From Pseudorhodoferax sp. Leaf274 (GTDB taxonomy: Bacteria > Pseudomonadota > Gammaproteobacteria > Burkholderiales > Burkholderiaceae_C): 64,000 nt of DNA. The stretch lies in NCBI RefSeq assembly GCF_001422445.1, contig NZ_LMNA01000023.1, positions 186,001-250,000 on the forward strand, in the 5' to 3' direction. The position numbers and the translations under genes were made by a program. Positions 7,589 to 46,269 of the stretch are shown here, piece after piece; the first letter of the stretch is position 1; the number at the start of each line of letters is the position of its first letter. A model generated the notes under the pieces. It worked only from the letters and a program-made list of their open reading frames with translations. It ran no database searches and was not told where the DNA came from.

Positions 7589-7633
7589 TTCGTCCGTTCC
7601 GACGATGCCGCGCCACGATGCCGGCGCCAAGAT
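7589..7633 (+). promoter_or_regulatory. Shared-box promoter of the racemase/CoA-ligase operon
   Basis: The box TTCGTCCGTTCCGACGATG (7589-7607) is followed, 19 bp later, by CCAAGAT (7627-7633) as a likely -10 element. It starts the unit that opens with the racemase gene at 7684. The same arrangement recurs at the promoters at 16829, 20001, 21075, 29148 (minus), 33317 (minus), 37621 and 46224, with a weaker version at 43019 (minus). It suggests an activator bound just upstream of RNA polymerase. Confidence 0.7.
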
Positions 7634-7683
7634 GCCCTCCATCAAAGATGGCCGGCCCATGCCGGTCCGAGGAGGCATACGAG

Positions 7684-8766
7684 ATGGCAGGACCTTTGCA
7701 GGGACTTCGGGTGGTGGAGATGGCGGGCATCGGCCCGGGGCCGTTTTGCGCGATGCTGTTCGCCGACATGGGCGCCGAGGTGCTGCGGGTCGAGCGCCCC
7801 GGCACCAGGCGCAACCCGCATGACATCCTGGCGCGCGGCCGCACCGTGCTGCCGCTGGACCTGCGGGCCGAGGGCGCGGCCGAGCAACTGCTGCAGACCA
7901 TCGCGCAGGCCGATGTGCTCATCGAGGGTTTCCGCCCGGGCGTGATGGAACGCCTGGGCCTGGGCCCGGATGCCTGCCACGGGCGCAACCCGCGCCTGGT
8001 CTACGGCCGCATGACCGGCTGGGGCCAGCACGGCCCCCTGGCCCAGGCGGCGGGGCACGACATCAACTACATCGCGATCAGCGGCGCGCTGCACGCCATC
8101 GGCCGCTCCGGCGAGACGCCGGTGCCGCCGCTCAACTACGTGGGCGATTTCGGCGGCGGCGCCATGCTGCTGGCCTTCGGCATCCTCGCGGCGCTGCACG
8201 AGGCCAAGGGCTCGGGCCAGGGCCAGGTGATCGACGCCGCCATGACCGATGGCGCGGCGCTGCTCTCGGCCATGATGTACGGCATGAAGGCCGCCGGCCA
8301 GTGGAACAACCAGCGCGGCGAGAACCTGCTCGACGGCGCCGCGCACTTCTACGACACCTACGCCTGCGCCGACGGCAAGTTCGTGGCCATCGGCGCCATC
8401 GAGCCGCAGTTCTACGCGCTGCTGCGCGAGCGCTGCGGCATCGCCGACGACCCCGCCTTCGATGCGCAGATGGACATGGCGCGCTGGCCCATGCTCAAGC
8501 TGCGTGTGGCCGACCTGTTCCGCACGCGCACACGCGACGAATGGTGCGCACTGCTCGAAGGAACCGACGCCTGCTTCGCGCCCGTGCTCGACTGGGACGA
8601 GGCGCCGGCCCATGCGCACAACCGCGCGCGCGGCACCTTCGCCGAAGCCGGCGGCCTGGTGCAGCCCGCGCCCGCGCCGCGCTTCAGCCGCACGCCTGCC
8701 GAGTTGCCGCCGGCCGTGTCGCCACACGACGCGCAAGCGCTGCTGGCGCGCTGGGCGGCGCGCTGA
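7684..8766 (+). CDS. Alpha-methylacyl-CoA racemase-like CaiB/BaiF-family protein
   Basis: Belongs to the CoA-transferase family III fold; this member most resembles alpha-methylacyl-CoA racemase, which interconverts (R)- and (S)-2-methylacyl-CoA so that beta-oxidation of methyl-branched acids can proceed. The 360-residue protein opens with the family signature [20 protein letters not shown]. The racemase acid/base pair appears to be present: His125 in GHDINYIA and Asp155 in VGDFGGG, at the positions of His126 and Asp156 in the Mycobacterium tuberculosis racemase. The start at 7684 follows a GGAGG site. It is first in a run of six genes (racemase, CoA ligase, acyl-CoA dehydrogenase, hydratase, dienoyl-CoA reductase, hydratase) with gaps of 26 bp or less. 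A true CoA-transferase role cannot be fully excluded. Confidence 0.88.
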
Positions 8767-8792
8767 GCCATTCGAAGAATAAGGAGACAAGC

Positions 8793-10349: not shown

Positions 10350-10366
10350 AAAAGAGAGAGACAAGC

Positions 10367-12312: not shown

Positions 12313-12325
12313 AGGAGACACCCCG

Positions 12326-14045: not shown

Positions 14046-16724
14046 TCAGCGGATCACGCCCAGCTTGCGCGCGATCGCCACCGCTTGGGTGCGGCTCTTG
14101 GCATCGAGCTTCATGTTGATGTTGCGCAGGTGCGTGCGCACCGTGCTGTCCGAGACGAACAGCTTCTCGGCCATCGCGCTGTTGGAGTAGCCCTCGGCCA
14201 GCAGCTGCAGCACGCGGATCTCCTTGCGCGTGAGCGGCTCCTCGCTGCCGCCGCCGGCCAGGGCGGGGGCTTCGGGTTCGGGCGCGGCCAGCGGGCCGAT
14301 GGCGTGCAGCAGGCGCTGCAGGTGCTCGGCCTGGATCGGGTCGCCCGCGTCGGGCGCGGCCGCGGCATAGCGCTGCAGCAGCCGCCCCACGGCCGGGCCT
14401 TCGTCCAGGATCAGGCGCATGAAGCCTTCCTGGCTGGCCGTCTGCAGCACCGTGCCGATCTCGGCCACGGCGGCGGCCTGGTCGCCGGCGCGCTGCTGCG
14501 CCAGCGCCCGCAGCACCTGGAGCTTGAGCACGCGCCGGGTGCGCGCGGCCGTGGTGGCGGCGTGGATCTCGGCGTCCAGCAGCAACAGCGCTGCGCGCGC
14601 GTCGCCGAAGGCGATCTCCCAGCGCGCCTTGGCCAGGGCCAGGTAATCGAGGTCGTGCGCGGGCAGGCGCATGCGGCGCTCGCGCTCCCAGATGGCGGGG
14701 TCGTCGGCGCGCTGCAGCTCGTCGTGCGCGGCCGGGCCATTGCCCTGCAGCAGCAGCATGCGCGAGCGTTCCAGCTTGGCGCCGGCCACCACGCGCGGCA
14801 GCTGGCGCGCATGGCCCAGGTATTCCAGTTCGGTCAGCGCCTGCAGCGCGGCTTCCACATCGCCGCTGTGGAACGCGATGCGCGAGCGCATCACGTGCGA
14901 CAGGATCATGTGGTCCGGCAGCCCCACGTCGCGCGCCAGCGGCAGGTAGACGTTGAGCAGGTGCTCGGCCTTGGGCAGCTGGTTGGCCTCGTAGACCACG
15001 CCGGCATAGAGCACGCCGGCCCAGGCGTTGCCGTGGCTGTGGTTGTAGGTCACGGCATGGGTGGAGTCCACCGCGATGCGAAAGCGCGCCGTGGCCTGGC
15101 GCAGCCGGCCGGCCTGCAGGTCCAGCATGCCTTCGGAGGCCTCGGTGTACATGCGGTGGAAGTTGGCGTCGCTCTTGGCCTGGCCCTGCTTGCTGCGCGC
15201 GGTATCCAGCAGGCGCTGGGAGGCGTGCTGGTCGCCCATGACCGACAGGATGTGGGCCATGGCATTGAGCAGCGCGCTGTCGGCGAAGGCCAGGCCCGTG
15301 GGCAGGCGGTTCATGCAGGCGCGGCCGGCCTCGTAGGCTTCGTCGTAGCGGTCCTGCATGGCCCACAGCAGCGGGTACAGCGTCTGGGCGCAGGCACGGA
15401 CCTCGGGCAGCGGGCTCTGTGCGCAGTCCGAGGCTTCCAGCCGGGCCATCGCATCCCAGGGGCCGTGCGTGAAGCACTCGGCCCACAGCGCGATGAGCTG
15501 CAGCAAGGGGTGCTGGCGCAGCTGGTGCTCGGGGATCGCCGCGAACCAGCGCGCCAGCAGCCGCATGCGGCCCTGTTCGAGGAACTGCTGTGCCCAGGTG
15601 TCCAGCAGCGTCAGCGCATGCGGGTGGTCGCCGCCTTCGATGGCATGGTCGATGGCTGGCACGGGGCGCCCTTGCGATTCGTACCAGCCCGAGGCGGCCA
15701 GGTGCAGGCGGGCCAGCTCGTCCGGTTGCTCGCGCACCAGCTGCGCGCGCAGGAAGTCCGAGAACAGGCTGTGGTAGCGCCAGGCCCGGGGTTCGTCGCC
15801 GGCCTCGCTGCTGATGGGCGTGAGGAACAGGTCGGCCGCGGCCAGCTGCTCCAGGATGGCGGCGCTGTTGCCGCGCGGGATCAGGGCCTGGCAGACCGAG
15901 GGGTCGAGCTGGCGCAGGATGCTGGTGCGCAGCAGGAAGTCGCGGATGGCGCCGGGCTGGTGCGCTAGCACGTCTTCGGCCAGGTATTCGGCCACGGCCC
16001 GGTTGGAGCCCGAGAAGCGCTCGACGAAGTCGGGCGCGACGCCGGGACGCTCCAGCGCCATCGAGGCCAGCCAGATCGCCGCCACCCAGCCCTCGGTCTT
16101 GCGGTGCAGCTGGTCGAGCCGCTCGGCCGACAGCGCCGGCATGGCGCGCTGGCCAAGGAAGGCACCGGTCTCCTCCAGGCTGAAGCGCAGCCGGTCGGTG
16201 TCGATCTCCAGCAGCTGGCCGCGCGCGCGCAGCCTGCCGAGGCCCAGGTCGGGTAGGCTGCGCGAGCCGATCACGATGCGGCCGCCGCGCGGCATGTGCT
16301 CGACGATCTCGCGCACCAGGCCCAACACGGCCGGTTCGTGCACCACCTCGAATTCGTCGAGGAACAGCGCGAACGGCGCGTCGTGCGAGGCCAGCACGGC
16401 CACGGCGTCGAAGGGCGCGTTGCCGCGCGGGCCTTCCATGCCCAGGCGCAGTACCACCTCGCCCAGGCAGCTGACGAAGCGCGACATGTCGTTGTCGGCC
16501 CGGTCCAGCGTGAGCCAGGCGGTGGCGATGCCCTGCTCGTCCAGGCGCTGGCGGGCCTGCGCCATGGTGGTGGTCTTGCCGAACCCGGCCGGCGCGCGCA
16601 CCAGCACCAGGCGGGCGACGGTGCCGGCGATCTCGTCGCTGATGGCCGTGCGCAGCACCTGGGTGGGCGCGGCCGAGGGCGGGTTGAGCTTGGCTTCGAG
16701 GATGCGGGGTTGGGAGAGCGGCAT
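14046..16724 (-). CDS. MalT-like LuxR-family ATP-dependent transcriptional activator
   Basis: Large (892-residue) signal-transduction ATPase of the LAL/MalT type. A P-loop, APAGFGKTT, lies at residues 44-52; Walker B and sensor regions (FALFLDEFEVV, GSRSLPDLGL) follow; a long alpha-helical TPR-like middle section fills most of the protein; and a LuxR helix-turn-helix ends it (LTRKEIRVLQLLAEGYSNSA, then VSDSTVRTHLRNINMKLDAK). Members bind ATP plus an inducer, oligomerise, and activate promoters from sites just upstream of the -35 region. A TTG 51 bp further upstream is possible, but the ATG at 16724 starts at the conserved ILEAKLNPP segment. It faces nitronate monooxygenase across a copy of the shared palindromic box, so it is the best candidate in the window for the regulator of that box. 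The inducer is unknown, and control of the box is inference. Confidence 0.92.
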   Translation of the reverse strand: MPLSQPRILEAKLNPPSAAPTQVLRTAISDEIAGTVARLVLVRAPAGFGKTTTMAQARQRLDEQGIATAWLTLDRADNDMSRFVSCLGEVVLRLGMEGPRGNAPFDAVAVLASHDAPFALFLDEFEVVHEPAVLGLVREIVEHMPRGGRIVIGSRSLPDLGLGRLRARGQLLEIDTDRLRFSLEETGAFLGQRAMPALSAERLDQLHRKTEGWVAAIWLASMALERPGVAPDFVERFSGSNRAVAEYLAEDVLAHQPGAIRDFLLRTSILRQLDPSVCQALIPRGNSAAILEQLAAADLFLTPISSEAGDEPRAWRYHSLFSDFLRAQLVREQPDELARLHLAASGWYESQGRPVPAIDHAIEGGDHPHALTLLDTWAQQFLEQGRMRLLARWFAAIPEHQLRQHPLLQLIALWAECFTHGPWDAMARLEASDCAQSPLPEVRACAQTLYPLLWAMQDRYDEAYEAGRACMNRLPTGLAFADSALLNAMAHILSVMGDQHASQRLLDTARSKQGQAKSDANFHRMYTEASEGMLDLQAGRLRQATARFRIAVDSTHAVTYNHSHGNAWAGVLYAGVVYEANQLPKAEHLLNVYLPLARDVGLPDHMILSHVMRSRIAFHSGDVEAALQALTELEYLGHARQLPRVVAGAKLERSRMLLLQGNGPAAHDELQRADDPAIWERERRMRLPAHDLDYLALAKARWEIAFGDARAALLLLDAEIHAATTAARTRRVLKLQVLRALAQQRAGDQAAAVAEIGTVLQTASQEGFMRLILDEGPAVGRLLQRYAAAAPDAGDPIQAEHLQRLLHAIGPLAAPEPEAPALAGGGSEEPLTRKEIRVLQLLAEGYSNSAMAEKLFVSDSTVRTHLRNINMKLDAKSRTQAVAIARKLGVIR

Positions 16725-16828
16725 CGCGGGCAGAAGAGGAGGGTGCGGCAGGCGAGCAGGCAGTGTCGGCGGCAACGGACGGACGGCTTGTCTCCTAGGG
16801 CGCAGCTGGCGTGGGGGGGCATCGGCGT

Positions 16829-17983
<1,155 letters not shown>

Positions 17984-17989
17984 AGTGAA

Positions 17990-18125
17990 ACCACCCCGTT
18001 TGGATGGCGCACTTCGTGTGGCCATTCCATCCCCCTCAAGGGGCGCCGCCAGCGCCCGGGCAGAGCCCGTTGCGCGGCGTCTGCTGGCATGGCCTGCTCC
18101 GCGGCCTCTCGACCACCGGCTTGCG
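17990..18125. repeat. Intergenic palindromic, GC-rich segment (possible dispersed repeat)
   Basis: The 165-bp gap between nitronate monooxygenase and the thioesterase contains the short inverted repeat CCCCCTCAAGGGG and a run of GCCGCC/GGCGGC and GCCCGGGC palindromes. In style it resembles the short intergenic repeats common in Comamonadaceae genomes. No second full copy occurs in this window. There is no T-run, so it is not a convincing intrinsic terminator. Confidence 0.35.
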
Positions 18126-18148
18126 GGCCAGTGCAATGGACAACCGAC

Positions 18149-20000: not shown

Positions 20001-20047
20001 CTCGTCCGATCGGACGATGGTGCGGCACGGCGCCGCGCCCCTAGCAT
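20001..20047 (+). promoter_or_regulatory. Shared-box promoter of the third Bug receptor (best palindrome)
   Basis: CTCGTCCGATCGGACGATGG (20001-20020) contains TCGTCCGATCGGACGA, a perfect 16-bp palindrome. CTAGCAT follows at 20041-20047 as the -10 element. With +1 placed about 7 nt after the -10, the palindrome is centred near -44. No recognisable -35 hexamer lies at the proper spacing (GGTGCG), consistent with activator dependence. Confidence 0.75.
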
Positions 20048-20077
20048 GCGCCCGCCCCCACGCCCAGGAGACCTCCC

Positions 20078-21043
20078 ATGCCGCTGTCACGCCGCCACTT
20101 CGCCGCATTGTCCCTGGCCGCTTGCCTGCCGCTGGCCGGGCGTGCCAGCAGCTACCCCGACAAGCCCGTGCGCCTCGTCATGCCCTTCCCCGCCGGCGGC
20201 ATGGGCGACATCCTCGCGCGCCACCTCGCCACCGACCTGGCGAAGCTCTGGGGCCAGCCCGTGGTGGTCGACAACCGCGCCGGCGCCTCCGGCATGATCG
20301 GCAACGAATACGTGGCGCGCGCGGCGCCCGACGGCACGACGCTGCTGCTGGGCATCAGCCAGCTGGCGCTGGCACCCGCGCTCTACCCCAGGATGGCCTA
20401 CGACGTGGAGAAGGACTTCGTGCCGCTGGCGCGCGTGGCCGACGCCGTCTCGGTCTTCGTCACCAACGATGCGCGCATCGGCTCGGTCAAGGACTACGTG
20501 GCGCTGGCCAAAGCCATGCCCGACAAGCTCAGCTACGGCACCTACGGCGCGGGCACCTCGGCCCACATCTTTGCAGAGATCTTCAACCGCGCCAACGGCA
20601 TCCGCACCGTGCACGTGCCCTACAAGGGCGCGGCGCCGCTCATCAACGACCTGCTGGCCGGCCACGTGACGCTGTCGTTCACCGACCTGGCCTCGCCGCT
20701 GCCGCACATCCTGTCCGGCCGGCTCAAGGCCTATGCGGTCACCGGCACGCGCCGCGCGCCGCTGCTGCCCGATGTGCCCACCTTCGCGGAACTGGGCCAT
20801 GCGGGCCTGGACGTGCCGGGTTGGTATGCGCTGTTCGCGCCCGCGAAGACGCCGCCCGAGACCGTGCGCCGCATCCGCGAGGGCGTGGCCCAGGTGCTGC
20901 AGGCGCCCGAGATGCAGGCGCGGCTCACACAGCTGGGCCTGCTGCCCGTGGTCGAACAGCCGGCCACCTTCGAGCAGCGTTTGCGCGACGACATGGCGTA
21001 CTGGAAGAAGGCCATCACCGACAACAACATACGGCTGGATTGA
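20078..21043 (+). CDS. Bug-family tripartite tricarboxylate transporter receptor
   Basis: Periplasmic receptor of 321 residues. The signal peptide has a twin-arginine-like start (SRRHFAALSLAACLPLAGRAS), followed by YPDKPVRLVMPFPAGGMGDI, the VVVDNRAGASGMIGN loop and VHVPYKGAAPLINDLLAGHV. A CAGGAGA site precedes the ATG. It is driven by the best copy of the shared box and is followed 116 bp later by a second box-controlled gene, the FadB/FadJ-like enzyme. This suggests that its ligand is an acid or related compound degraded through beta-oxidation. Its last codons and stop are included in a 26-bp tandem duplication. Confidence 0.94.
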   Translation: MPLSRRHFAALSLAACLPLAGRASSYPDKPVRLVMPFPAGGMGDILARHLATDLAKLWGQPVVVDNRAGASGMIGNEYVARAAPDGTTLLLGISQLALAPALYPRMAYDVEKDFVPLARVADAVSVFVTNDARIGSVKDYVALAKAMPDKLSYGTYGAGTSAHIFAEIFNRANGIRTVHVPYKGAAPLINDLLAGHVTLSFTDLASPLPHILSGRLKAYAVTGTRRAPLLPDVPTFAELGHAGLDVPGWYALFAPAKTPPETVRRIREGVAQVLQAPEMQARLTQLGLLPVVEQPATFEQRLRDDMAYWKKAITDNNIRLD

Positions 21044-21084
21044 CCTGATTCGTCCGTTGGCTGGATTGACCTGATTCGTCCGTT
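21033..21084 (+). repeat. 26-bp tandem direct repeat across the Bug stop codon and the next promoter
   Basis: Two exact back-to-back copies (21033-21058 and 21059-21084), each starting GGCTGGATTGACC and ending ATTCGTCCGTT. Each copy includes the last codons and TGA of the receptor gene, and the left half of the shared box. Only the second copy is completed by the right arm (CGGACGATG) to make the working box at 21075. It looks like a recent replication-slippage or strand-misalignment duplication. Confidence 0.9.
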
Positions 21085-21120
21085 CGGACGATGGCCCGAC
21101 ACCACCCCTCTCCCTAGACT
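21075..21120 (+). promoter_or_regulatory. Shared-box promoter of the FadB/FadJ-like gene
   Basis: TTCGTCCGTTCGGACGATGG (21075-21094) is followed after 20 bp by CTAGACT (21114-21120). The predicted start of transcription is near 21127, with the box centred at about -42.5. The first TTG codon with a ribosome site is at 21160. The left half-box is duplicated 26 bp upstream. Confidence 0.73.
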
Positions 21121-21159: not shown

Positions 21160-23331
<2,172 letters not shown>

Positions 23332-27574: not shown

Positions 27575-29065
27575 TCAGCGGTAGGCGAGGGCGTTCTCGT
27601 CGGGGCGCACGGCGGGCAGCGCGCTGCGCTCTTCCTGGTATTCCAGGTTGTGCCGCCAGGGGTCGCGGTCGCCCTGGCGGAACATGCGGTGCTGCGCGCG
27701 CAGGATGTAGCCCGCGTTGAAGTTCTGCGGGTCCATCCAGGGCAGGCGCGGCATGCCGGCGTCCTCGCCGCGCAGCGTGGGCACCACCACCGCATGGCCC
27801 TGGTCCTGCATGTGCTGCAGCACGCGGCACACCAGGTCGCAGACCAGGTCCAGCCGCAGCGTCCAGCTCGAGCGGAAATAGCCCATCACGTAGGCCAGGT
27901 TGGGCAGGCCTTCGAGCATCACGCCGCGCCAGGTCACGCGCTGCGTGAAGTCCACGGGCACACCGTCGACGCCGAACGGCACGCCGCCCAGCACCTGCAG
28001 GTCGAAGCCCGTGGCCGTGACGACCACGTCGGCCGGCAGGTGCGCGCCGCTGGACAGCCGGATGCCGGTGGCGTCGAAGCATTCGATGCCATCGGTCACC
28101 ACCGAGGCCTTGCCGCTGCGGATGGCGGCGAACAGGTCGCCGTCGGGCACCACGGCCACACGCTGCTGCCAGGGGCGGTAGCGTGGGTTGAAGTGCTTGT
28201 CCACGTCGAAGCCCTCGGGCAGCTGGGCGCGTGCCTGCTCCATGAGGTTGGCGCGCAGGTCTTCCGGCCGCTCGAAGGACATGCGCACCACCTCGCCGTT
28301 GCGCGCGATGTGGGCGCGGCGCAGGATCTCGTGCGTCCAGTCGGCCGGCAGGTCCAGCGCGCGCAGCGGGGCTTCGAGCGGATGGGCCCGTGGCAGTGCC
28401 GAGAAGAAGGTCGGCGAGCGCTGCAGCATGGTCACGTGCGCCACCTGCTCGGCCAGCGCCGGGATCAGCGTGGCGGCCGTGGCGCCCGAGCCGATGACCA
28501 CCACGCGCCGGCCCGTGCAATCGAGATCCTGCGGCCAGTGCTGCGGGTGGACCACGCGGCCCTGGAAGCTGTCCATGCCGGGCCAGGTGGGCGTGTAGGG
28601 CTGGCCGTGGTCGTAATAGCCGGCGCACATCCAGAGAAAGCCCGTGGTCAGCGTGAGCACCGCGTCGCTGTCCTTGCGCGCGATGCGCAGCGTCCAGCGG
28701 CTGTCCTGCGACGACCAGTCGGCCGACAGCACGCGGTGGCCGTAGCGGATGTGCGGCGCCAGGCCGTTCTCTTCGATGGTCTCGGCCAGGTAGCGGCGGA
28801 TCTCGTCGGCCGTGGCGATCGCGCTGCCCATCCAGGGCTTGAAGGCGTAGCCGTAGGTGTGCAGGTCGCTGTCGGAGCGTGCGCCGGGGTAGCGGTGCGT
28901 CCACCAGGTGCCGCCGAAGCCGTCCATGGCCTCCAGCACGGCAAGGCTGCGGTCAGGCCAGCGCTGGCGCAGGTGGTGCGCGGCGCCGATGCCGGAGATG
29001 CCGGCGCCGATCACGAGGAAGTCGAAGTGCGCGCCGTCTTCCGTCTGGCTCTGGGCGGTGGCCAT
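27575..29065 (-). CDS. Flavin-containing monooxygenase, Baeyer-Villiger type
   Basis: FAD- and NADPH-dependent monooxygenase of 496 residues. The FAD motif GAGISGIGAA lies at about residues 20-29, with GGTWWTHRYPGARSDSDLHT after it. The fingerprint FQGRVVHPQHWP (FxGxxxHxxxW) defines Baeyer-Villiger and related class B enzymes, and the NADPH motif GSGATAATL follows. The ATG is preceded by AAGGAGACAAGC. A half-conserved shared box with a CTAAGAT -10 element lies upstream (29105-29148), so it may have its own promoter while also belonging to the longer thiolase-receptor-ligase unit. Conversion of a ketone to an ester is the likely reaction; the substrate is unknown. Confidence 0.94.
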   Translation of the reverse strand: MATAQSQTEDGAHFDFLVIGAGISGIGAAHHLRQRWPDRSLAVLEAMDGFGGTWWTHRYPGARSDSDLHTYGYAFKPWMGSAIATADEIRRYLAETIEENGLAPHIRYGHRVLSADWSSQDSRWTLRIARKDSDAVLTLTTGFLWMCAGYYDHGQPYTPTWPGMDSFQGRVVHPQHWPQDLDCTGRRVVVIGSGATAATLIPALAEQVAHVTMLQRSPTFFSALPRAHPLEAPLRALDLPADWTHEILRRAHIARNGEVVRMSFERPEDLRANLMEQARAQLPEGFDVDKHFNPRYRPWQQRVAVVPDGDLFAAIRSGKASVVTDGIECFDATGIRLSSGAHLPADVVVTATGFDLQVLGGVPFGVDGVPVDFTQRVTWRGVMLEGLPNLAYVMGYFRSSWTLRLDLVCDLVCRVLQHMQDQGHAVVVPTLRGEDAGMPRLPWMDPQNFNAGYILRAQHRMFRQGDRDPWRHNLEYQEERSALPAVRPDENALAYR

Positions 29066-29104: not shown

Positions 29105-29148
29105 ATCTTAGGCCGCATGCCGTGCGCGCCGCGTCGTCCGAGGGACAG
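29105..29148 (-). promoter_or_regulatory. Weak shared-box promoter in front of the Baeyer-Villiger-type monooxygenase
   Basis: On the minus strand the sequence CTCGGACGACG gives a good right half of the box, while the left arm is poor. CTAAGAT follows with a spacing of 20 bp (29111 down to 29105), exactly as in the better copies. The conserved spacing makes it credible despite the weak left half. Confidence 0.5.
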
Positions 29149-31999: not shown

Positions 32000-33238
32000 T
32001 TAGACCCGCTCGATGATGATGGCCGGGGCCATGCCGCCGGCGGCGCACATGGTGACCAGGCCGCGCTTGAGGTCGCGCCGCTCCAGCTCGTCCAGCAGCG
32101 TGCCGATCAGGAGCGAGCCCGTGGCGCCGATGGGGTGGCCCAGCGCCATGGCGCCGCCGTTCACGTTGACCTTGGCGCGGTCGAGCTTCAGGTCGCGGAT
32201 GAACTTCTCGGCCACCACGGCGAAGGCCTCGTTGATCTCCCACAGGTCGATGTCATCGACCGTGAGGCCGGCCTTGGCCAGCACCTTGCGCGCGGCCGGC
32301 ACCGGTGCGTTCAGCATCAGCGTGGCGCTGTCGCCCACGTTGGCCATGGCGACGATGCGCGCGCGCGGCTTGAGGCCACGCTTCTTGGCATAGGCACCGG
32401 AGGCCAGCAGCAGCGCGCCGGCGCCGTCGACCACGCCCGAGCTGTTGCCGGCGTGGTGCACGTAGTTGATCTTGAGCTCGGGGAAGACCTGGCGGATCAG
32501 GCCGGCGTAGGTGTTGCCTTGCTCGTCGATGGGGCGCTCGGCCATCACCTCGAAGGCGGGCTTGAGCGAGGCCAGGCCCTCCAGCGTGGTCTGCGGGCGC
32601 GGGAACTCCTCGCGGTCCAGCGCCAGGCTGCCGTCTTCGCGGTACACCGGCACCAGGCTGCGCTTGAAGTGGCCGCCCTCGATGGCGGCGGCGGCGCGCT
32701 GCTGGCTCAGCAGGGCCAGTTCGTCGAGCGCGCTGCGCGGGATGCCTTCCAGCGTGGCGATGGCGTCGGCGCACACGCCCTGGTGCGATTGCGGCACGTT
32801 GCGGCGCAGCCGCAGGTTGCCGGCGTCCATCATGCTGGGGTTGGCGGGGTCGGCCAGCGATGCGGTGTAGCTCATCATCTCGCAGCCGCCGGCGATCACC
32901 AGGTCTTCGAAGCCTGCGGCCACCGTGGCGGCGGCCAGGTTCACCGAGGTGATGCCCGAGCCGCAGAAGCGGTCCAGCGTCACTCCGCTGGCCAGGTGGC
33001 TGTAGCCCGCGTCCAGCAGGGCCATGCGGGCCATGTCGTTGCCCTGCTTGCCGCGCTGGGTCGAGGTGCCCCAGATCACGTCGTCCACCTCGGCGGTGTC
33101 GAGCTGGTTGCGCTCGGCCAGCGCCTTGAGCACGGTGGCGGCCAGGTGCTGGGGATGCTGGTCGGCAAGGGCGCCCTTGCCGATCTTGCCGATGCCGCGC
33201 GGCGTGCGGCAGGTGTCGATGATGTATGCGTCGGACAT
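32000..33238 (-). CDS. Acetyl-CoA C-acyltransferase (thiolase)
   Basis: Thiolytic cleavage of 3-oxoacyl-CoA. The protein has 412 residues. The acyl-accepting Cys is in LDRFCGSGITS (about residue 92), and the other catalytic residues sit in NEAFAVVAEKF, GGAMALGHPIGATG (His) and MCAAGGMAPAIIIE (Cys). It is the first gene of a minus-strand unit of thiolase, receptor, CoA ligase, Baeyer-Villiger enzyme and esterase, with gaps of 10 to 89 bp. The promoter at 33272-33317 carries a shared box. It is more distant from the thiolase at 46305, so the two probably serve different substrates. Confidence 0.95.
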   Translation of the reverse strand: MSDAYIIDTCRTPRGIGKIGKGALADQHPQHLAATVLKALAERNQLDTAEVDDVIWGTSTQRGKQGNDMARMALLDAGYSHLASGVTLDRFCGSGITSVNLAAATVAAGFEDLVIAGGCEMMSYTASLADPANPSMMDAGNLRLRRNVPQSHQGVCADAIATLEGIPRSALDELALLSQQRAAAAIEGGHFKRSLVPVYREDGSLALDREEFPRPQTTLEGLASLKPAFEVMAERPIDEQGNTYAGLIRQVFPELKINYVHHAGNSSGVVDGAGALLLASGAYAKKRGLKPRARIVAMANVGDSATLMLNAPVPAARKVLAKAGLTVDDIDLWEINEAFAVVAEKFIRDLKLDRAKVNVNGGAMALGHPIGATGSLLIGTLLDELERRDLKRGLVTMCAAGGMAPAIIIERV

Positions 33239-33271: not shown

Positions 33272-33317
33272 AGACTAGCGGCGACTGGCGCCGCCGTCAT
33301 CGTCCGAAGCGACGAAC
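33272..33317 (-). promoter_or_regulatory. Shared-box promoter of the thiolase operon
   Basis: On the minus strand GTTCGTCGCTTCGGACGATG (33317 down to 33298) is followed after 19 bp by CTAGTCT (33278 down to 33272). The thiolase start is a further 34 bp on. Its left arm has the same CGTCGC variant as the copy at 16829. Confidence 0.7.
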
Positions 33318-34699: not shown

Positions 34700-34704
34700 G
34701 GGGT

Positions 34705-36241: not shown

Positions 36242-36283
36242 GGGGGGCCTGGGCGCCAGCTTACGGCACGCGGCCAGGCCGAT

Positions 36284-36303
36284 GCTTCGCTGCGCAGCGA
36301 AGC
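36284..36303. promoter_or_regulatory. ArsR-type operator (GCTTCGCTGCGCAGCGAAGC)
   Basis: Perfect 20-bp palindrome in the middle of the 127-bp divergent region between the ArsR-type regulator and the MFS transporter. Sites with TTCG...CGAA arms are usual for ArsR-family proteins in proteobacteria. Control of both genes is inferred. Confidence 0.78.
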
Positions 36304-36368
36304 GTTCGGCCGCTGGCGTGGCCACCATCGCTGCACCGCGGCGCAGGCCGCTTGCAGCGAGTGCTTCC

Positions 36369-37778
36369 ATGCCTTCTTCTTGCATTGCCCCTCCCGCCGC
36401 GTGCGACGGCCACGGTGTCGTGCGCGCTGCCTTCGTGCTGGCCCTGTTCGGCTGGGGCGTGGGTTTCTACGGGCCGCCGGTGTTCCTGCATGCGGTGGTG
36501 GCGCGCACCGGCTGGCCGCTGCCGCTGGTGTCGGCGGCGGTGAGCCTGCACTTCCTGTTCGGCGCCGGTGTCGTCGCCTGCCTGCCCAGGCTGCACCGCC
36601 GCTTCGGCGTGCCGGCCACGACGCTGGGCGGCGCGCTGGCGCTGGCATTCGGCGTGCTGGGCTGGGCGGCAGCGGCCAAACCCTGGCAGCTGTTCCTGGC
36701 GGCGCTGTGCACGGGCGCGGGCTGGGTGCCGCTGGGCGCCGCCGGCATCCACGCCATCGTGTCGCCCTGGTTCACCGTGCAGCAGCCGATGGCGCTGGCG
36801 AAGGCCTACAACGGCGCCAGCGTGGGTGGCATGGTCTTCGTGCCGCTGTGGGCGGCCTTGATCGACAGGGTGGGCTTTCCGGCCGCGGCGATGCTGGTCG
36901 GTCTGGCGATGGTCGTGGCCGTGCTGTCGATCGCCTCGCGCGAGCTGGCGTGCAGGCCCGTGGACCGTGAAGCTGCTCCTGGCCCTGGCCCTGGCCCTGG
37001 CGCTGGCGCTGGCGCTGCGCCGGTGCCCGCCACGCCCTGGTGCAGCCGTGCCTTCGTGACGCTCGCGGCCGCGATGGCCCTGGGCCTGTTCGCCCAGATC
37101 GGGCTGATCGCCCAGTTGTTCTCTTTGTTGGTGCCCGGCATGGGCCCGCAGATGGCCGGCTGGACCATGGCCCTGGCCACCGCTTGCGGCATGGGCGGCC
37201 GCGTGCTCGTGGCCCGGGGGCTGGGCACGCAGCGGGACCGGCGCCGGGTCGCCGCTGCCAGCTATGCGGTGCAGGCCGCCGGCACGCTGCTGCTGTGGAT
37301 GGCAGGCCCCGAACCCGGCTGGCCCACCGTGCTGGGCGTGGCGCTGTTCGGGCTGGGCATCGGCAACGCGACCTCGTTGCCGCCACTGATCGCACAGGCC
37401 GAATTCGCGCCCGCCCAGGTGACGCGCGTGGTGGCGCGCTGCGTGGCACTGGCCCAGGCGCTCTATGCGTTCGCGCCGGCCGCGTTCGCCGCGCTGCTGG
37501 TGGCGGGCGGCCCTGGCGGGCCCACGCTGGGTGTGGGTACGCAGGGCTTCTTCGCCGCCATCGCCGTGGTGCAGGGCCTGGCCATCGCCTGCATGCTGGC
37601 CGGCCGGCGCGGGGCGAAATTCATCGTTTCGGACGATGGGCAGGCCGGGCCTCCCACCCAAGACTGCTGCTCCGGACGCGGCCGGGGCCGGCAAGCCCTG
37701 GGCGCGTTGCGGACCACACCGCGGAACCGGGGCCTCCAGGCCCTGCACGACACGCAGCACCAGGAGACAAGCAGATGA
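36369..37778 (+). CDS. MFS transporter
   Basis: Major facilitator superfamily permease, 469 residues, about 12 membrane segments. It begins with VVRAAFVLALFGWGVGFYGP and contains typical glycine-rich segments such as AYNGASVGGMVFVPLWAALI, found in the MFS group that includes oxalate/formate-like and monocarboxylate carriers. The central cytoplasmic loop holds a run of Gly-Pro/Gly-Ala pairs encoded by a hexanucleotide repeat. The last 50 or so residues after AGRRGAKF are hydrophilic and are encoded across a shared-box promoter, so the functional protein might once have been shorter. Regulation by the divergent ArsR-type protein is likely. Substrate unknown. Confidence 0.9.
   Translation: MPSSCIAPPAACDGHGVVRAAFVLALFGWGVGFYGPPVFLHAVVARTGWPLPLVSAAVSLHFLFGAGVVACLPRLHRRFGVPATTLGGALALAFGVLGWAAAAKPWQLFLAALCTGAGWVPLGAAGIHAIVSPWFTVQQPMALAKAYNGASVGGMVFVPLWAALIDRVGFPAAAMLVGLAMVVAVLSIASRELACRPVDREAAPGPGPGPGAGAGAAPVPATPWCSRAFVTLAAAMALGLFAQIGLIAQLFSLLVPGMGPQMAGWTMALATACGMGGRVLVARGLGTQRDRRRVAAASYAVQAAGTLLLWMAGPEPGWPTVLGVALFGLGIGNATSLPPLIAQAEFAPAQVTRVVARCVALAQALYAFAPAAFAALLVAGGPGGPTLGVGTQGFFAAIAVVQGLAIACMLAGRRGAKFIVSDDGQAGPPTQDCCSGRGRGRQALGALRTTPRNRGLQALHDTQHQETSR
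36979..37014 (+). repeat. Hexanucleotide tandem repeat in the MFS loop
   Basis: Three units of CTGGCC followed by three of CTGGCG, in perfect register. Because the unit is 6 bp, changes in copy number would add or remove whole Gly-Pro or Gly-Ala pairs without breaking the frame. The encoded stretch lies in the loop between the two six-helix halves of the transporter. Confidence 0.85.
37621..37665 (+). promoter_or_regulatory. Shared-box promoter inside the 3' end of the MFS gene
   Basis: TCATCGTTTCGGACGATGG (37621-37639) has a strong right arm and a shorter left arm (a CATCG/CGATG outer match). CAAGACT follows after 20 bp (37659-37665). It would drive the receptor remnant at 37775 and the CoA ligase at 37918. 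Confidence 0.6.
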
Positions 37779-37918
37779 ATTCGGATTGCAACAAGATCCC
37801 GCGACGCGCCGTTCTGGCCATGGGCATGGGTGCCGCACTGCCCGCATCCGCACGGAAGCCGTACGGCCCCGTCCGCATGACGCCACCCACCGAACGCCAG
37901 TCTCCAAGGAGCCGCTGA
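37775..37918 (+). pseudogene. Remnant of a Bug receptor gene (47 codons)
   Basis: A short frame reading MNSDCNKIPRRAVLAMGMGA followed by ALPASARKPYGPVRM and a stop. It has a good AGGAGACAAGC ribosome site, a twin-arginine-like signal peptide ending in AxA, and a KPYGPVRM piece that resembles the KPVRxxVP mature start of Bug receptors. The remaining 270 or so residues of a receptor are missing, and what follows the match is not receptor-like. The simplest reading is an internal deletion that left the start of the gene in place. Alternatively, it is a tiny exported peptide or leader. It overlaps the MFS stop (ATGA) and the next ligase start (TGATG). Confidence 0.55.
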
Positions 37919-39480
37919 TGCGCCTGCGCCAGACCCAATCCCTGCACCGCGCCGTGCAGCAGTACCCCGACCGCGTGGCCACCGTCTACAACGGCCGCCG
38001 CCAGACCTTCCGCCAGCTGCACGACCGCGTGGCCCGGCTCGCCGGCGCGCTGCAGGCCCTGGGCATGCGCGCGGGCGACCGCGTGGGCATGCTCGCGCTC
38101 AACTCCGACCGCACGCTGGAGTTCTACCTGGCCGTCTGGTGGGCCGGCGGCGTGGTCAACCCGGCCAACACGCGCTGGAGCGCGGCCGAGATCGCCTTCT
38201 CGCTGCAGGATTGCGAGACCGCCATCCTGTTCGTGGACGACAGCTTCGTGCCCATGGTCCCCGAACTGCAGGCCCAGGCACCCTGCCTCAAGACGCTGCT
38301 CTACGTGGGCGACAAGCCGGCCCCGGCCGGCTTGCTGGACACCGAGCAACTGCTCGCCGCAGCCCGGCCCGTGGCGGACGCGCTGCGCAGCGGCGACGAC
38401 CTGGCCGGCGTGTTCTACACCGGCGGCACCACCGGCCGGCCCAAGGGCGTGATGCTGAGCCAGGAGGCGCTGGCCGCGAACTCCGTGCTCTCGCTGATCG
38501 CCTCGCCGCTCGATGGCGATGCAGTGCTGCTGCACAGTGCGCCGCTGTTCCACCTCGGCGGCCTGTCCGCGCTGATGCGCAGCCTGGTCGTGGGCACGAC
38601 GAACGTGTTCCTGCCGGGCTTCACGCCGGGCGGTGTGCTCCAGGCCATCGCCGAGCACCGCATCACCAGCCTCATGCTGATCCCGGTGATGCTGCAGTTC
38701 CTGCTCGACGACCCGGCCGCGCGTGGTGCCGATCTGTCCAGCGTGCGCGTGGTGGGCTATGGCGCATCGCCCATCTCCGAAGCCTTGCTGGAGCGCGCCT
38801 TCGCGCTGCTGCCGCAGGCCGATCTCGTGCAGGGCTACGGCATGACCGAACTGGCCGCCGGCGTGACCTACCTGACGGCGGAGTACCACGCGCCGCAAGG
38901 CCGCAAGCTGGGCAAGCTCAACTCCGCCGGCCGCGCGCTCAACGGCATCGACCTGCGCATCGTGGACGTGGAAGGCCGCGAAGTGCCGCGTGGCCAAGTC
39001 GGCGAGATCGCGGTGCGCAGCCCCTGCGCGATGTCGGGCTACTGGAACCTGCCCGACACCACCGCCCAGGCGCTGCGCGACGGCTGGATGTTCACGGGCG
39101 ACGCGGCGCGCATGGACGAGGACGGCTTCGTCTTCATCGTCGACCGCTTCAAGGACATGGTGGTCTCGGGCGGCGAGAACGTGTACTGCGGCGAGGTCGA
39201 GGCCGCGCTCGCGCGCCACCCTGCGGTGGCGGCCGCCGCCGTGATCGGCGTGCCGCACGCGCAATGGGGCGAGGCCGTGCACGCGGTGCTGGTGCTGCGG
39301 CCGGGCGTGGAGGCCACGGCCGAGGACATCCAGGCCCACTGCAAGGCGCTGATCGCGGGCTACAAGTGCCCGCGCAGCGTGGAGTTCGTGGCGGCGCTGC
39401 CGATCAGCGGGGCGGGCAAGGTGATGAAGTACAAGCTGCGCGAGCCGCACTGGAAGGGGCGCGAGCGGGCTGTGGGCTAA
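37918..39480 (+). CDS. Acyl-CoA synthetase (AMP-forming, fatty-acid CoA ligase)
   Basis: ANL-superfamily ligase of 520 residues, close in sequence to the ligase at 8793 (for example NTRWSAAEIAFSLQDCETAIL against NVRWSAQEIAYSLDDCDTRIL). Motifs are YTGGTTGRPKGVMLS, YGMTELAAGVTYL, WMFTGDAARMDEDGFVFI, DRFKDMVVSGGENVY and the C-terminal LPISGAGKVMKYKLRE. The start overlaps the stop of the small upstream frame (TGATG), so translation may be coupled to it. It stands alone at the end of the plus-strand segment, convergent with the acyl-CoA dehydrogenase at 39514. Substrate unknown. Confidence 0.94.
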   Translation: MRLRQTQSLHRAVQQYPDRVATVYNGRRQTFRQLHDRVARLAGALQALGMRAGDRVGMLALNSDRTLEFYLAVWWAGGVVNPANTRWSAAEIAFSLQDCETAILFVDDSFVPMVPELQAQAPCLKTLLYVGDKPAPAGLLDTEQLLAAARPVADALRSGDDLAGVFYTGGTTGRPKGVMLSQEALAANSVLSLIASPLDGDAVLLHSAPLFHLGGLSALMRSLVVGTTNVFLPGFTPGGVLQAIAEHRITSLMLIPVMLQFLLDDPAARGADLSSVRVVGYGASPISEALLERAFALLPQADLVQGYGMTELAAGVTYLTAEYHAPQGRKLGKLNSAGRALNGIDLRIVDVEGREVPRGQVGEIAVRSPCAMSGYWNLPDTTAQALRDGWMFTGDAARMDEDGFVFIVDRFKDMVVSGGENVYCGEVEAALARHPAVAAAAVIGVPHAQWGEAVHAVLVLRPGVEATAEDIQAHCKALIAGYKCPRSVEFVAALPISGAGKVMKYKLREPHWKGRERAVG

Positions 39481-39513
39481 GGTCCCAGCCGGGCCGGCGG
39501 GCCCTGCCCTGGC

Positions 39514-40662: not shown

Positions 40663-40663
40663 C

Positions 40664-41722: not shown

Positions 41723-41723
41723 G

Positions 41724-42944
41724 TCAGGTTCCTTTTGCCAGACGGCATTCGCTTTGGCTGAGAGGGCGGAAGGCGGTGGCGCCCGGGGTCGTGCCCACCA
41801 CCTTGTACAGGTCCCATTCGCCCTTGGATTCAGCCGGCGTCTTGACCTGGTAGAGGTGCATGTCGCGCACCACGCGGCCGTCCACGCGCAGCTGGCCACC
41901 CGCGGTCATGAAGTCGTTGATGGGCGTGGCGCGCATCTGCGCCATGACCTTGTCGCTGTCGCGCGTGCCGGCCGCCTTCACGGCGTTGAGGTAGTGCGTC
42001 ACGGCGCCGTAGGTGCCGGCCTGGGTCATGGTGGGCATCACGCCGTTGCGCTTGAAGAAGCGCTGCGACCACGCGCGCGTCTTGTCGTCCTGGTCCCAGT
42101 AGAAGGCCTCGGTCAGCAGCAGGCCCTGGGCCTGGCGCAGGCCGATGGCCTTCACGTCCGTCAGGAAGGCCAGCAGCGCGGCGATCTTCTGGCCGCCCTG
42201 CACGATGCCGAACTGGCTGGCCGCCTTGATGCTGTTGATGGTGTCGCCGCCGCCATTGGCCAGGCCGATGATCTTGGCCTTCGAACTCTGCGCCTGCAGC
42301 AGGAAGGACGCGAAGTCCGACGCGCCCAGCGGGTGCCTGGCGCTGCCCAGCACCTTGCCGCCCATCTCGTTGATGACGTCGGTGGTGTCCTTCTCCATCG
42401 CCTGTCCGAAGGCGTAGTCGGCCGACAGGAAGAACCAGGTGTCGCCGCCGGCCTTCACCGCCGCCGCGCCGGTGCTGCGCGCCAGCGCGTAGGTGTCGTA
42501 GGTCCAGTGCACGGTGTAGGGCGTGCAGCTCTTGCCGGTCAGCTCCGAGGTGGCGGCGCTGGTCACGATGACGATCTTCTTCTTCTCCTCGCCCAGCTTG
42601 CTCACGGCCAGCGCCAGGCCGGAGGAGGGCAGGTCGGTGACCATGTCCACGCCCTGGGTGTCGAACCACTCGCGCGCCTTGGAGGCGGCCACGTCGGCCT
42701 TGTTCTGCGTGTCGGCGAACACCATCTCGATGGGCGCGCCCAGCACGCTGCCGCCGAAGTCCTCGATGGCCATGCGCGTGGCATCGACCAGGCCCTTGCC
42801 GCCGATGGCGGCGTAGATCGACGTCAGGTCGGTCAGCACGCCGATCTTGACCGGTGCGGGCTTGGCCTGCGCGGCGGCACCGCCGGCCCACATGGCCAAC
42901 GCGCCGCACAGCGCCGTGGCCGCAATCCTTGCCTTGTCCTGCAT
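41724..42944 (-). CDS. Branched-chain amino acid-type ABC transporter substrate-binding protein
   Basis: Periplasmic receptor of 406 residues. The signal peptide is MQDKARIAATALCGALAMWA followed by GGAAA, and the mature start is KPAPVKIGVLTDLTSIYAAIGGKG. The protein is of a different branch from the three KKYDxGASDT receptors in this window, lacking that start and the TDPTVDSQ segment; it has TYDTYALARSTGAA and FFLSADYAFGQAME. It is the first gene of the operon with alcohol dehydrogenase and acyl-CoA dehydrogenase. A shared box lies 55 bp upstream, and a GGAGACAAG ribosome site precedes the ATG. Membrane partners are presumably the LivHMGF set at 47553-51091 or others outside the window. Confidence 0.93.
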   Translation of the reverse strand: MQDKARIAATALCGALAMWAGGAAAQAKPAPVKIGVLTDLTSIYAAIGGKGLVDATRMAIEDFGGSVLGAPIEMVFADTQNKADVAASKAREWFDTQGVDMVTDLPSSGLALAVSKLGEEKKKIVIVTSAATSELTGKSCTPYTVHWTYDTYALARSTGAAAVKAGGDTWFFLSADYAFGQAMEKDTTDVINEMGGKVLGSARHPLGASDFASFLLQAQSSKAKIIGLANGGGDTINSIKAASQFGIVQGGQKIAALLAFLTDVKAIGLRQAQGLLLTEAFYWDQDDKTRAWSQRFFKRNGVMPTMTQAGTYGAVTHYLNAVKAAGTRDSDKVMAQMRATPINDFMTAGGQLRVDGRVVRDMHLYQVKTPAESKGEWDLYKVVGTTPGATAFRPLSQSECRLAKGT

Positions 42945-42978
42945 CTTGTCTCCCCGTTCTTGGTAGAGCTGGCATCGT

Positions 42979-43019
42979 GCTCCTGCGCCGCCCGGGCGGC
43001 ATCGTCCGATCCGACGAGC
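42979..43019 (-). promoter_or_regulatory. Shared box in the divergent region between two ABC receptor genes
   Basis: On the minus strand GCTCGTCGGATCGGACGATG (43019 down to 43000) matches the box, with one change in the left arm. About 20 bp further lies CACGAT, a poor -10. It is placed to drive the receptor at 42944. Being nearly symmetrical, it could also influence the divergent receptor at 43182, but no good -10 is found on that side. Confidence 0.58.
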
Positions 43020-43181
43020 CGCGCCGCCTGCGCGACACCGGGTTTCCCCTCATGGGCGCTGGTCGTTCCAGCCAATGGCTTTGGTCGAATCGGCCATGGC
43101 CGCTGCCTGTCGCCGGCGCGATAGTGCGCAACGCCGCCGATGCCGGTCGGCGCACCCCCCCAAGAGACAGGAGACAAGACC

Positions 43182-44387: not shown

Positions 44388-45010
44388 TGGCCTCCACCGC
44401 CGAGCCCATCGACTTCTGGTTCGACTTCCTCTCGCCCTACGGCTACTTCGCGTCCACGCGCATCGACGCGCTGGCCGCGCAGCACGGCCGCAGCGTGCGC
44501 TGGCGCGCGTTCTACATGCGCGGGATCATGCAGGACAAGCTGGGCCAGACCCGGCCGTTCCTGGAGGTGCCGCTCAAGGGCGACTACTACAAGCGCGACG
44601 TGCCGCGCATGGCGCGCTGGTTCGGCCTGCCGTTCAAGTCCGGGGGCCTCTCGAACTTCATCAGCGCCAACGCCTGCCGCGCGTTCTGGCTCATCGATGA
44701 CCTCGATCCCGTCCTGGCCAAGCGCTTCGCGCGCGAGATCTTCGAGTGGCACCATGTGCGCGCCACGCCGCCCAACACGCCCGAGCAGATCGCGCAGGCC
44801 GCCGCCAACGTGGGGCTGGACGCTGCGCAGCTGGACATCGCCGCCGCCGTGCAGCAGGCGCCCGCCAAGGAGCGGCTGCGCGTGGAGACCGATGCAGCCG
44901 TGGCTGCAGGCGTCTGGGGCACGCCGACCTTCGTGGTCGATGGTGAAATGTTCTGGGGCGCCGACCGTTTGAATCTGGTCGATGACTGGTTGCGCCGTGG
45001 TGGCTGGTAA
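44387..45010 (+). CDS. 2-hydroxychromene-2-carboxylate isomerase-like (kappa-GST/DsbA-fold) protein
   Basis: Thioredoxin-fold protein of 207 residues in the HCCA isomerase group. The N-terminal WFDFLSPYGYFASTRID has Ser in place of the DsbA Cys, and the C-terminal cis-proline segment reads AGVWGTPTFVVDGEMFWGADRL. It differs considerably from the copy at 34094, so it is not a recent duplicate. The ATG overlaps the receptor stop. It is followed after 15 bp by a CaiB-family gene. A glutathione-dependent isomerisation step on a CoA or aromatic intermediate is possible. Confidence 0.9.
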   Translation: MASTAEPIDFWFDFLSPYGYFASTRIDALAAQHGRSVRWRAFYMRGIMQDKLGQTRPFLEVPLKGDYYKRDVPRMARWFGLPFKSGGLSNFISANACRAFWLIDDLDPVLAKRFAREIFEWHHVRATPPNTPEQIAQAAANVGLDAAQLDIAAAVQQAPAKERLRVETDAAVAAGVWGTPTFVVDGEMFWGADRLNLVDDWLRRGGW

Positions 45011-45025
45011 CACAAGGAGATGACG

Positions 45026-46252
45026 ATGGCAGGACCCCTGGAGGGCATTCGCGTTCTGGACCTGTCGGCCGTGCTGTCGGGGCCCATTGCGGCCGGCATG
45101 CTGGCCGACCAGGGCGCCGACGTGGTCAAGATCGAATCGCCGGACGGCGACACCTCGCGCCGCATCGGCCCGCGCAAGGCCGACATCTCGGCCATGTTCC
45201 TGGCCGCCAACCGCGGCAAGCGCTCGCTGGTGCTCGACCTCAAGCAAGCGGCTGCGCAGCAGATCGTGCGCGAGCTCGCGCAGCGTGCCGACGTGCTGGT
45301 CGAGAACTTCCGCCCCGGCGCCATGGACCGGCTGGGCCTGGGCCACGAAGCCCTGCTGGCGCTGAACCCGCGCCTGGTCTACCTGTCGATCAGCGGCTTC
45401 GGCCAGACCGGCCCCAACGCGGGCGAGCGCGCCTACGACGCCGTGATCCAGGCCGTCTCGGGCATCAGCGCCTCGCACCGCAACCAGGTCAGCGGCGACC
45501 CGCAGGTGCTGGCCGCCGCGCTGTGCGACAAGCTCACCGCGCTGACGGCCGCGCAGGCTATCTGCGCGGCCCTGCTGGCGCGCACGCGCACGGGCAAGGG
45601 CCAGTGGGTGGAGCTGGCCATGCTGGACGCGGCCGTGTCCTTCCAGTGGCCGGACGCCATGTACAACCACATCTGGCTCGACGACGCGCCGCCGCCTTCG
45701 CCCGAGTTCGGCGTGAGCCAGAAGCCCTGGAAGACCTCCGACGGCTACGCCGTGGCCTCGGGCCCGCAGCCCGTGGAGTTCGCGGCCGTGTGCGCAGGCT
45801 TCGGCCGGCCCGAGCTGGCCCAGGATCCGCGCTTCGCCAGCGTCGACGGGCGCTTCCGCCACGCGGCCGCGTTGCGCGAGGAACTCGACCCCAGCGCCGC
45901 CGCCATCGACACCGCCACCATGCTGCAGCGCATGCGCGCGCACAACGCGCCCGTGGGCCGCGTGAACGAGCGCCACGAGGTGCTGGCCGACCCGCAGGTG
46001 CTGCACAACGGCACGCTGGTGGAGGTGGACCACGGCGAGCTCGGCCGCGCGCGGCTGCCGCGCTCGCCCGCGCGCTTCAACGGCACGCCTGCGGCGGCAC
46101 CCGGCCCGGCACCGCACCTGGGCCAGCATGCGGCCGATGTGCTGGGCGAACTGGGCCATGATGCGGCGCAGCAGGACGCCTGGCGCGAGGCCGGCGTGCT
46201 CGGTGCGCCGGCAGCGTTTCCAAAATCGTCCGTTCCGACGACGCCCCGCTGA
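45026..46252 (+). CDS. CaiB/BaiF CoA-transferase family protein
   Basis: Family III CoA-transferase fold, 408 residues, moving CoA between carboxylic acids. It starts AGPLEGIRVLDLSAVLSGPI and contains LVLDLKQ, ENFRPGAMDRLGLG, ISGFGQTGPNAGERAYDAVIQAVSG (Asp of the typical nucleophile region in RAYDAVIQ) and GKGQWVELAMLDA. Compared with the racemase-like gene at 7684, the residues here are those of true CoA-transferases (the Asp in AYDAVIQAVSG, where the racemase has its catalytic His). Two ATGs occur, at 45020 and 45026; the AAGGAG at 45014 is correctly spaced only for 45026. Its last 10 codons overlap a shared-box promoter, so the end of the protein may be under a double constraint. Confidence 0.92.
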   Translation: MAGPLEGIRVLDLSAVLSGPIAAGMLADQGADVVKIESPDGDTSRRIGPRKADISAMFLAANRGKRSLVLDLKQAAAQQIVRELAQRADVLVENFRPGAMDRLGLGHEALLALNPRLVYLSISGFGQTGPNAGERAYDAVIQAVSGISASHRNQVSGDPQVLAAALCDKLTALTAAQAICAALLARTRTGKGQWVELAMLDAAVSFQWPDAMYNHIWLDDAPPPSPEFGVSQKPWKTSDGYAVASGPQPVEFAAVCAGFGRPELAQDPRFASVDGRFRHAAALREELDPSAAAIDTATMLQRMRAHNAPVGRVNERHEVLADPQVLHNGTLVEVDHGELGRARLPRSPARFNGTPAAAPGPAPHLGQHAADVLGELGHDAAQQDAWREAGVLGAPAAFPKSSVPTTPR

Positions 46253-46269
46253 GGCGCCGCCGCGAACAT
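46224..46269 (+). promoter_or_regulatory. Shared-box promoter of the thiolase-LivGFHM-LvaABC-like operon
   Basis: AATCGTCCGTTCCGACGACG (46224-46243) is the box, with CGAACAT (46263-46269) 19 bp downstream as a -10. It lies inside the last codons of the CaiB-family gene. It would start the transcript of the ten-gene run from 46305 to 55771. Confidence 0.65.

Follow-up and report, generated by a model that had tools for sequence, protein, structure and literature searches.

The boxes of MalT are of the direct-repeat type and control maltose genes, and they are unlike the box described here. The class-II promoters of LuxR-type regulators, such as luxI, carry a palindrome of about 20 bp, which is centred near -42.5 and overlaps the -35 element. 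According to portions of PMC8784404 and PMC3664771, AlkS (Pseudomonas putida GPo1, Alcanivorax) is a LuxR/MalT family protein that recognises an inverted repeat and switches on the promoters of catabolic genes. Portions of PMC5343134 place acyl-CoA catabolism in betaproteobacteria under the FadP (TetR) and LiuR (MerR) regulons; the portions of PMC12543098 on dicarboxylate use name LysR, IclR and TetR regulators, and LuxR is not mentioned in them. Here, a 64,000-nucleotide stretch of Pseudorhodoferax sp. Leaf274 (NZ_LMNA01000023.1; G000:C23:186001-250000, hereafter the window) was analysed, which contains eight copies of a palindromic box placed before -10-like hexamers. The comparison of related genomes suggests that these boxes are very probably the operators of an activator encoded at 14046-16775, a large MalT-like LuxR-type protein (LAL). 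The G+C content of the window is 70.5%, and the genome has 6.74 Mb.

The box and the promoter layout

The operator consensus is the palindrome TCGTC-N6-GACGA with a 16-bp core, and in the window the -10-like hexamer NANNNT begins 23-25 bp past the core. The original prediction listed nine promoters with a shared box at a fixed spacing to the -10. A matrix of the box, the spacing and the -10 was trained on 108 non-redundant sites from 55 loci outside the genus. It scored 32.4-41.8 at eight of the nine (7590, 16830, 20002, 21076, 37621 and 46226 on the plus strand; 33300 and 43002 on the minus strand). The offset from core to -10 is 23, 24 or 25 at all eight, which bears out the fixed spacing. 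The next match in the window scored 17.2, and the best in 220 kb of other DNA from this genome 14.5. Shuffled DNA had been named beforehand as the comparison that could refute the arrangement; the best of eight window shuffles reached 18.8, and the arrangement was not refuted. The ninth site, 29148 (minus), was dropped as a box, as its left half is missing and it had no matrix box score. Its right half-site and CTAAGAT (TAAGAT at offset 24) are kept in a congener (G175), where the left half is missing too; its membership of the regulon is unproven. The features are as follows.

14046-16775, minus strand: LAL regulator gene with Walker A, TPR_MalT and C-terminal GerE; probable reader of the box; start uncertain (ATG at 16724)
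7590-7605, plus strand: box core TCGTCCGTTCCGACGA; -10 CAAGAT at 7628-7633; before a CaiB-type CoA-transferase gene (7684-8766)
16830-16845, plus strand: box core CCGTCGCTTCCGACGA; -10 TAAACT at 16868-16873; before a nitronate-monooxygenase-like gene (17003-17983, start uncertain); divergent from the LAL gene
20002-20017, plus strand: box core TCGTCCGATCGGACGA; -10 TAGCAT at 20042-20047, offset 25; before a Bug/TctC receptor gene (20078-21043)
21076-21091, plus strand: box core TCGTCCGTTCGGACGA; -10 TAGACT at 21115-21120; before a FadB-type gene (21160-23331)
33300-33315, minus strand: box core TCGTCGCTTCGGACGA; -10 TAGTCT at 33272-33277; before a thiolase gene (32000-33238)
37621-37636, plus strand: box core TCATCGTTTCGGACGA; -10 AAGACT at 37660-37665; before an AMP-ligase gene (37918-39480), 252 bases past the -10
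43002-43017, minus strand: box core TCGTCGGATCGGACGA; -10 CACGAT at 42974-42979; before a Peripla_BP_6 (LivK-type) receptor gene (41724-42944)
46226-46241, plus strand: box core TCGTCCGTTCCGACGA; -10 GAACAT at 46264-46269; before a thiolase gene (46305-47483); overlaps the end of an upstream CaiB-type open reading frame (45020-46252)
29105-29139, minus strand: doubtful site, not counted as a box; right half-site GGACGA at 29134-29139 and TAAGAT at 29105-29110; before an FMO-like gene (27575-29065)

The start codon lies 29-50 bases past the -10 at six of the eight sites, close to the 33-50 predicted for most of them; the other two distances are 129 and 252. About 250 bases (37666-37917) separate the -10 of box 37621 from the AMP-ligase start, far above most sites, and a start or a small gene may have been missed there. 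All units had been predicted to encode acyl-CoA catabolism, receptors or importers. This applies to seven; the eighth, behind box 16830, is nitronate-monooxygenase/FabK-like.

Palindromes that arise by chance in GC-rich DNA might account for the boxes, as might a short repeat or an RNA hairpin with no role in the promoter. The loose patterns, which stay at background genome-wide, favour chance: the TCGTCCGNNCGGACGATG-type pattern with up to three mismatches gave 405 matches against 478 for the reversed control, and the refined pattern with two mismatches 58 against 65. Clustering was found only for exact and one-mismatch matches of the refined pattern. Exact TCGTCNNWTYNGACGA gave 17 oriented matches at 13 places in the whole genome and none for the reversed control; one of these places, C12:450384, is far from any LAL and has no -10. 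In the window, TCGTCCGNNCGGACGATG with up to three mismatches gave 16 oriented matches at 11 places. The 100 shuffles of the window gave a mean of 1.52 and a maximum of 5, and thus never 16. The 11 places include seven of the nine listed sites, with 16828 and 29148 outside; those at 8097, 29516, 56847 and 60103 are extra to the list and were not counted as sites. Chance is contradicted by the shuffles, the exact-pattern controls, the cross-genus matrix and the lock to the -10 described next, and this explanation is extremely improbable.

Box places with up to one mismatch were collected from the window, stretches of the same genome, 39 named LAL loci and 40 stretches of relatives. Of these 238 places, 142 were non-redundant once those at least 65% alike were taken out, and at each the orientation with the better -10 was used. 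NANNNT lies 23-26 bp past the core at 131 of the 142 (71 at 23, 53 at 24, 6 at 25, 1 at 26), against a background of 8-28 per four-base block clear of this stretch, either orientation permitted. With the hexamer taken as -12 to -7, offsets 23 and 24 put the box centre at -42.5 or -43.5 in 124 of the 142 places, and an operator centre near -42.5 is the position of a class-II LuxR-type activator. The prediction of a regulon signal with this geometry (box near -43) is supported by the comparative evidence, from which we infer the activator role.

The two bases 3' of the core on the promoter side are T at 107 and G at 93 of the 131 oriented sites, and the mirror positions on the far side are without this bias (A 50/131, C 17/131). 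In the window, TG directly follows seven of the eight cores. Together with the last A of the core, TG forms a degenerate -35 (ATGNNN), whose distance to the -10 is 17 bp for offset 23 and 18 bp for offset 24; the earlier statement that no -35 is apparent is therefore to be corrected. An operator edge overlapping a poor -35 would be the layout of a promoter that needs an activator.

Scanning of own-genome DNA by the matrix identified 15 places scoring at least 32: the eight in the window, C23:280127, C23:281516, three on contig C5, one on C26 and one on C30. The exact arrangement, searched in the whole genome, recovers 12 of them and misses 16830 and 37621, which have one mismatch each, and 20002, whose offset is 25. 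The regulon thus extends past the window. The first genes behind the 15 places encode four Peripla_BP_6 receptors, three AMP-ligases and two thiolases, and one each of a CoA-transferase, nitronate-monooxygenase-like enzyme, Bug receptor, FadB, enoyl-CoA hydratase and acyl-CoA dehydrogenase. The box at C23:280127 (L057:10127-10142) is flanked on either side by a correctly spaced -10-like hexamer (TACGAT plus, TAGGAT minus), and is a candidate bidirectional promoter.

The LAL regulator and its association with the box

The LAL protein has 909 residues and the Walker A motif APAGFGKTT, the size and motif of this class. The Pfam domains TPR_MalT (1.6e-27) and C-terminal GerE (2.3e-17) were found, as in other LALs, and a match to the solved MalT chain 8bob (E 3.9e-40) covers the N-terminal 400 residues. 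Its score against the NCBIfam MalT model, 312.2 bits, is below the cut-off of 537, and it is not classed as a MalT equivalog. The LAL of Pseudorhodoferax soli is 96% identical, and on this basis the genome is assigned to the Comamonadaceae. No -10 was seen on the LAL side of box 16830 in the window, so self-activation from that box is not expected.

At 35 of 39 orthologue loci, the 250 bp immediately upstream from the LAL match contain a box (two mismatches permitted). Over these loci, the window and the own-genome stretches (1.08 Mb), 146 box places with up to one mismatch were found, against 2 for the reversed pattern. Among 200 genomes of the family, 29 have a LAL match at E <1e-80, and 22 of them at 45% identity or more. 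These 22 carry 5.9 exact boxes per genome (control 0.9); the other 178 carry 0.7 (control 0.6). The box plus -10 is present in all 22 (99 matches, control 5) and in 14 of the 178 (Fisher p 3e-20, kinship ignored); it is absent from all seven family genomes having only LALs of 31-33% identity. In the 22 LAL genomes, 81 of 115 exact places are within 60 kb of a LAL, where about 3 are expected. A set of 274 class-wide genomes gave two matches at E <1e-100 outside the family, at 32-36% identity.

Four genomes (G004, G142, G128 and G168) have box-plus-(-10) matches without this LAL clade. Several of these are TCGTC-N-NTTTTGGACGA or near, and might reflect another regulator variant or chance. In G104, a genome 76% complete, TCGTCCGATCGGACGA boxes with a -10 are on two contigs, but a LAL did not turn up; its gene may belong to the portion that the assembly lacks.

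These associations bear on two further explanations. The box might instead be the operator of a repressor, perhaps FadP or another TetR regulator, with the LAL a mere neighbour; portions of PMC5343134 report that FadP controls fatty-acid degradation in Comamonadaceae, and the target genes are of the same kind. Yet a box near -43 with a poor -35 suits an activator, and the co-occurrence, the co-localisation and the helix-box covariation (next section) point to the LAL. No TetR gene turned up in a Pfam scan that covered part of the window open reading frames. A repressor operator is thus considered improbable.

Another DNA-binding protein that travels with the LAL clade might also read the box: LacI, GntR/UTRA and ArsR-like genes are in the window, and a NarL-type response regulator is 84 kb from its start. 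This is less probable still, since the helix that covaries with the box centre is the LAL's own and the LAL adjoins the box in most loci; the NarL-type protein has a different helix and no box within the same 9 kb. That protein (G000:C23:270620-271330; L057:620-1330) was considered as a second reader and rejected, being a response regulator with a different helix and its nearest box 9 kb off. Its helix-turn-helix is 42% like that of the LAL, with the helix LAEGTVKNYV, and the next long open reading frame reads like a histidine kinase.

The recognition helix and the box centre

The recognition helix of the LALs covaries with the base at core position 8. Proteins with a VS[DE]ST or LSDST helix go with T (61 T, 10 A), and those with a VA[DE]TT helix with A (16 A, 2 T; Fisher p 3.5e-9, kinship ignored). 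Adding the named loci, which partly come from the same genomes, brings the VS[DE]ST/LSDST count to 168 T and 29 A. A LAL without helix-turn-helix (G116), the own-genome places on C26 and C30, and box 24937 on C5, which is too near the end of its stretch, were left out of the counts.

In the phylogenetic tree, the six VA[DE]TT proteins fall into two groups, and the starred branches force at least two changes. Four of the proteins form a paralogue clade with A at 11 of 11 boxes; the other two (G136 and G018) are nested in the main clade with 5 A and 2 T. The tree is a quick one with a long-branch warning at both groups, and a second origin of VA[DE]TT is likely, not certain. L107, L109, the partial LALs of G116, G144 and G067, and six distant LALs (G046, G060, G148, G158, G172, G318) were left out of it.

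Both helix types occur in the genome of the window: the window LAL and a paralogue at G000:C5:20781-23546, which is 46% identical. The boxes that go with the paralogue are, for example, TCGTCGCATGCGACGA. The predicted preference would be TCGTC-NNTTCN-GACGA for the LAL and TCGTCGGATRCGACGA for the paralogue. With its AT-centred box, the paralogue probably controls a second, smaller regulon in parallel.

Targets, range and relation to known systems

Pfam analysis of 128 first downstream genes showed CoA_transf_3 (18), Peripla_BP_6 (17), acyl-CoA dehydrogenase (16), thiolase (15), ECH_1 (15), short-chain dehydrogenase (12), AMP-binding (11) and 3HCDH (8). One protein may count in two families, and a duplicate (L190:4897-6507) was dropped from 129. 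The genes were picked by script, and some will be wrong; since only loci near LALs were selected, these numbers do not test for enrichment. One box-headed dehydrogenase is nearest to PimC, a pimeloyl-CoA dehydrogenase (322 bits, cut-off 624), and a medium-chain or dicarboxylic substrate is conceivable for it. An APH-family phosphotransferase gene is near acyl-CoA genes at 51081-52076 of the window and at L216:8152-9159; in our opinion, a metabolic kinase is more likely than drug resistance.

Boxes were also found with LALs in Cupriavidus and on a Paracoccaceae plasmid. Cupriavidus metallidurans CH34 (LAL 55.5% identical) carries four boxes, of which three are exact and the fourth is one base off. 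Each has its -10, and they precede two AMP-ligase-like genes, an acyl-CoA dehydrogenase gene and a CaiB-type gene. On the C. necator N-1 plasmid pBB1 (49.7%), there are four exact boxes, and a -10 accompanies each of them. A thiolase follows one of the boxes at a distance of about 0.3 kb, and for the other three there was no match in the small reference set. On the Paracoccaceae plasmid pLA6_001 (41.5%), three exact boxes stand in front of genes for a thiolase, a DctP receptor and an AMP-ligase; a -10 follows two of these boxes at offset 23 and is missing from the third. On this alphaproteobacterial plasmid (L216, CP031586.1), the LAL is annotated as kinase PknK and is amid acyl-CoA genes. Cupriavidus sp. 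EM10 (37.5%) has no exact box. With one mismatch and an N6 centre, the counts for box and reversed pattern are 28/12 in CH34, 18/6 in pBB1, 20/2 in pLA6_001 and 14/18 in EM10.

The LAL is proposed as the reader on the basis of the co-occurrence, the co-localisation, the covariation of helix and box centre, the lock to the -10, and the acyl-CoA and receptor first genes. Several points weigh against this. The hexamer is loose, with full TANNNT at 58 of the 142 places. No box is right beside the LAL in four orthologue loci (L082, L093, L101 and the truncated L107), and 34 of the 115 exact places are more than 60 kb from a LAL, some of them by chance, such as C12:450384. There are 21 box-plus-(-10) matches (control 12) in the 178 genomes without this LAL. 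Both P values are uncorrected for kinship. Of the CH34, pBB1 and pLA6_001 LALs, the helix was read in those of CH34 and pLA6_001, and it is VSDSTVRTHLRNI in both.

As an activator, the LAL would bind the box centred near -43 when it carries ATP and a metabolite of the pathway, which might be an acyl-CoA or the free acid. It would then contact RNA polymerase from the class-II position and make up for the poor -35, and so induce solute receptors along with CoA-ligase, CoA-transferase, dehydrogenase, hydratase, FadB and thiolase units. In a wider and tentative proposal, which we hold possible at somewhat less than even chances, one LAL runs a scattered acyl-CoA catabolic and import regulon. The helix switch from VS[DE]ST to VA[DE]TT might have arisen twice, each time moving the box centre from TT to AT and insulating paralogous regulons in one cell; regulator, boxes and targets might travel jointly between classes, as on pLA6_001.

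The original prediction was largely right, and a probable activator, a degenerate -35 and a range past the window can now be added to it with support. No description of the box, the regulon or the helix-box code was found among the search results listed for open-licence PubMed Central papers; the regulator class and the promoter layout are already known. These results offer a probable regulator, a precise operator and a promoter layout for scattered acyl-CoA units and import receptors in Comamonadaceae and relatives. The box-headed Bug, LivK-type and TRAP receptor genes are tied to defined catabolic units, which helps to assign their ligands. The helix-box covariation is a natural experiment on the DNA specificity of LuxR-type proteins.

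Compared with known systems, FadP and LiuR belong to other regulator families than the LAL, and the word LuxR does not occur in the main text of PMC5343134; the LAL regulon would be a further layer beside FadP. The luxI-type promoters have the same geometry, and their reader is a small quorum-sensing receptor, whereas here it would be a LAL. MalT of Escherichia coli has the same domain order as the LAL. AlkS, as described in portions of its literature, is likewise a large MalT-like LuxR activator of a catabolic pathway with an inverted repeat upstream of its promoters. It responds to C5-C10 alkanes, controls alkBFGHJKL and alkST, and activates its own promoter, whereas the LAL is associated with acyl-CoA units and receptors, has a different box and shows no sign of self-activation; the two are likened by their descriptions. 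In the best-supported reading, the LAL would be understood as a class-II activator of the AlkS/MalT kind.

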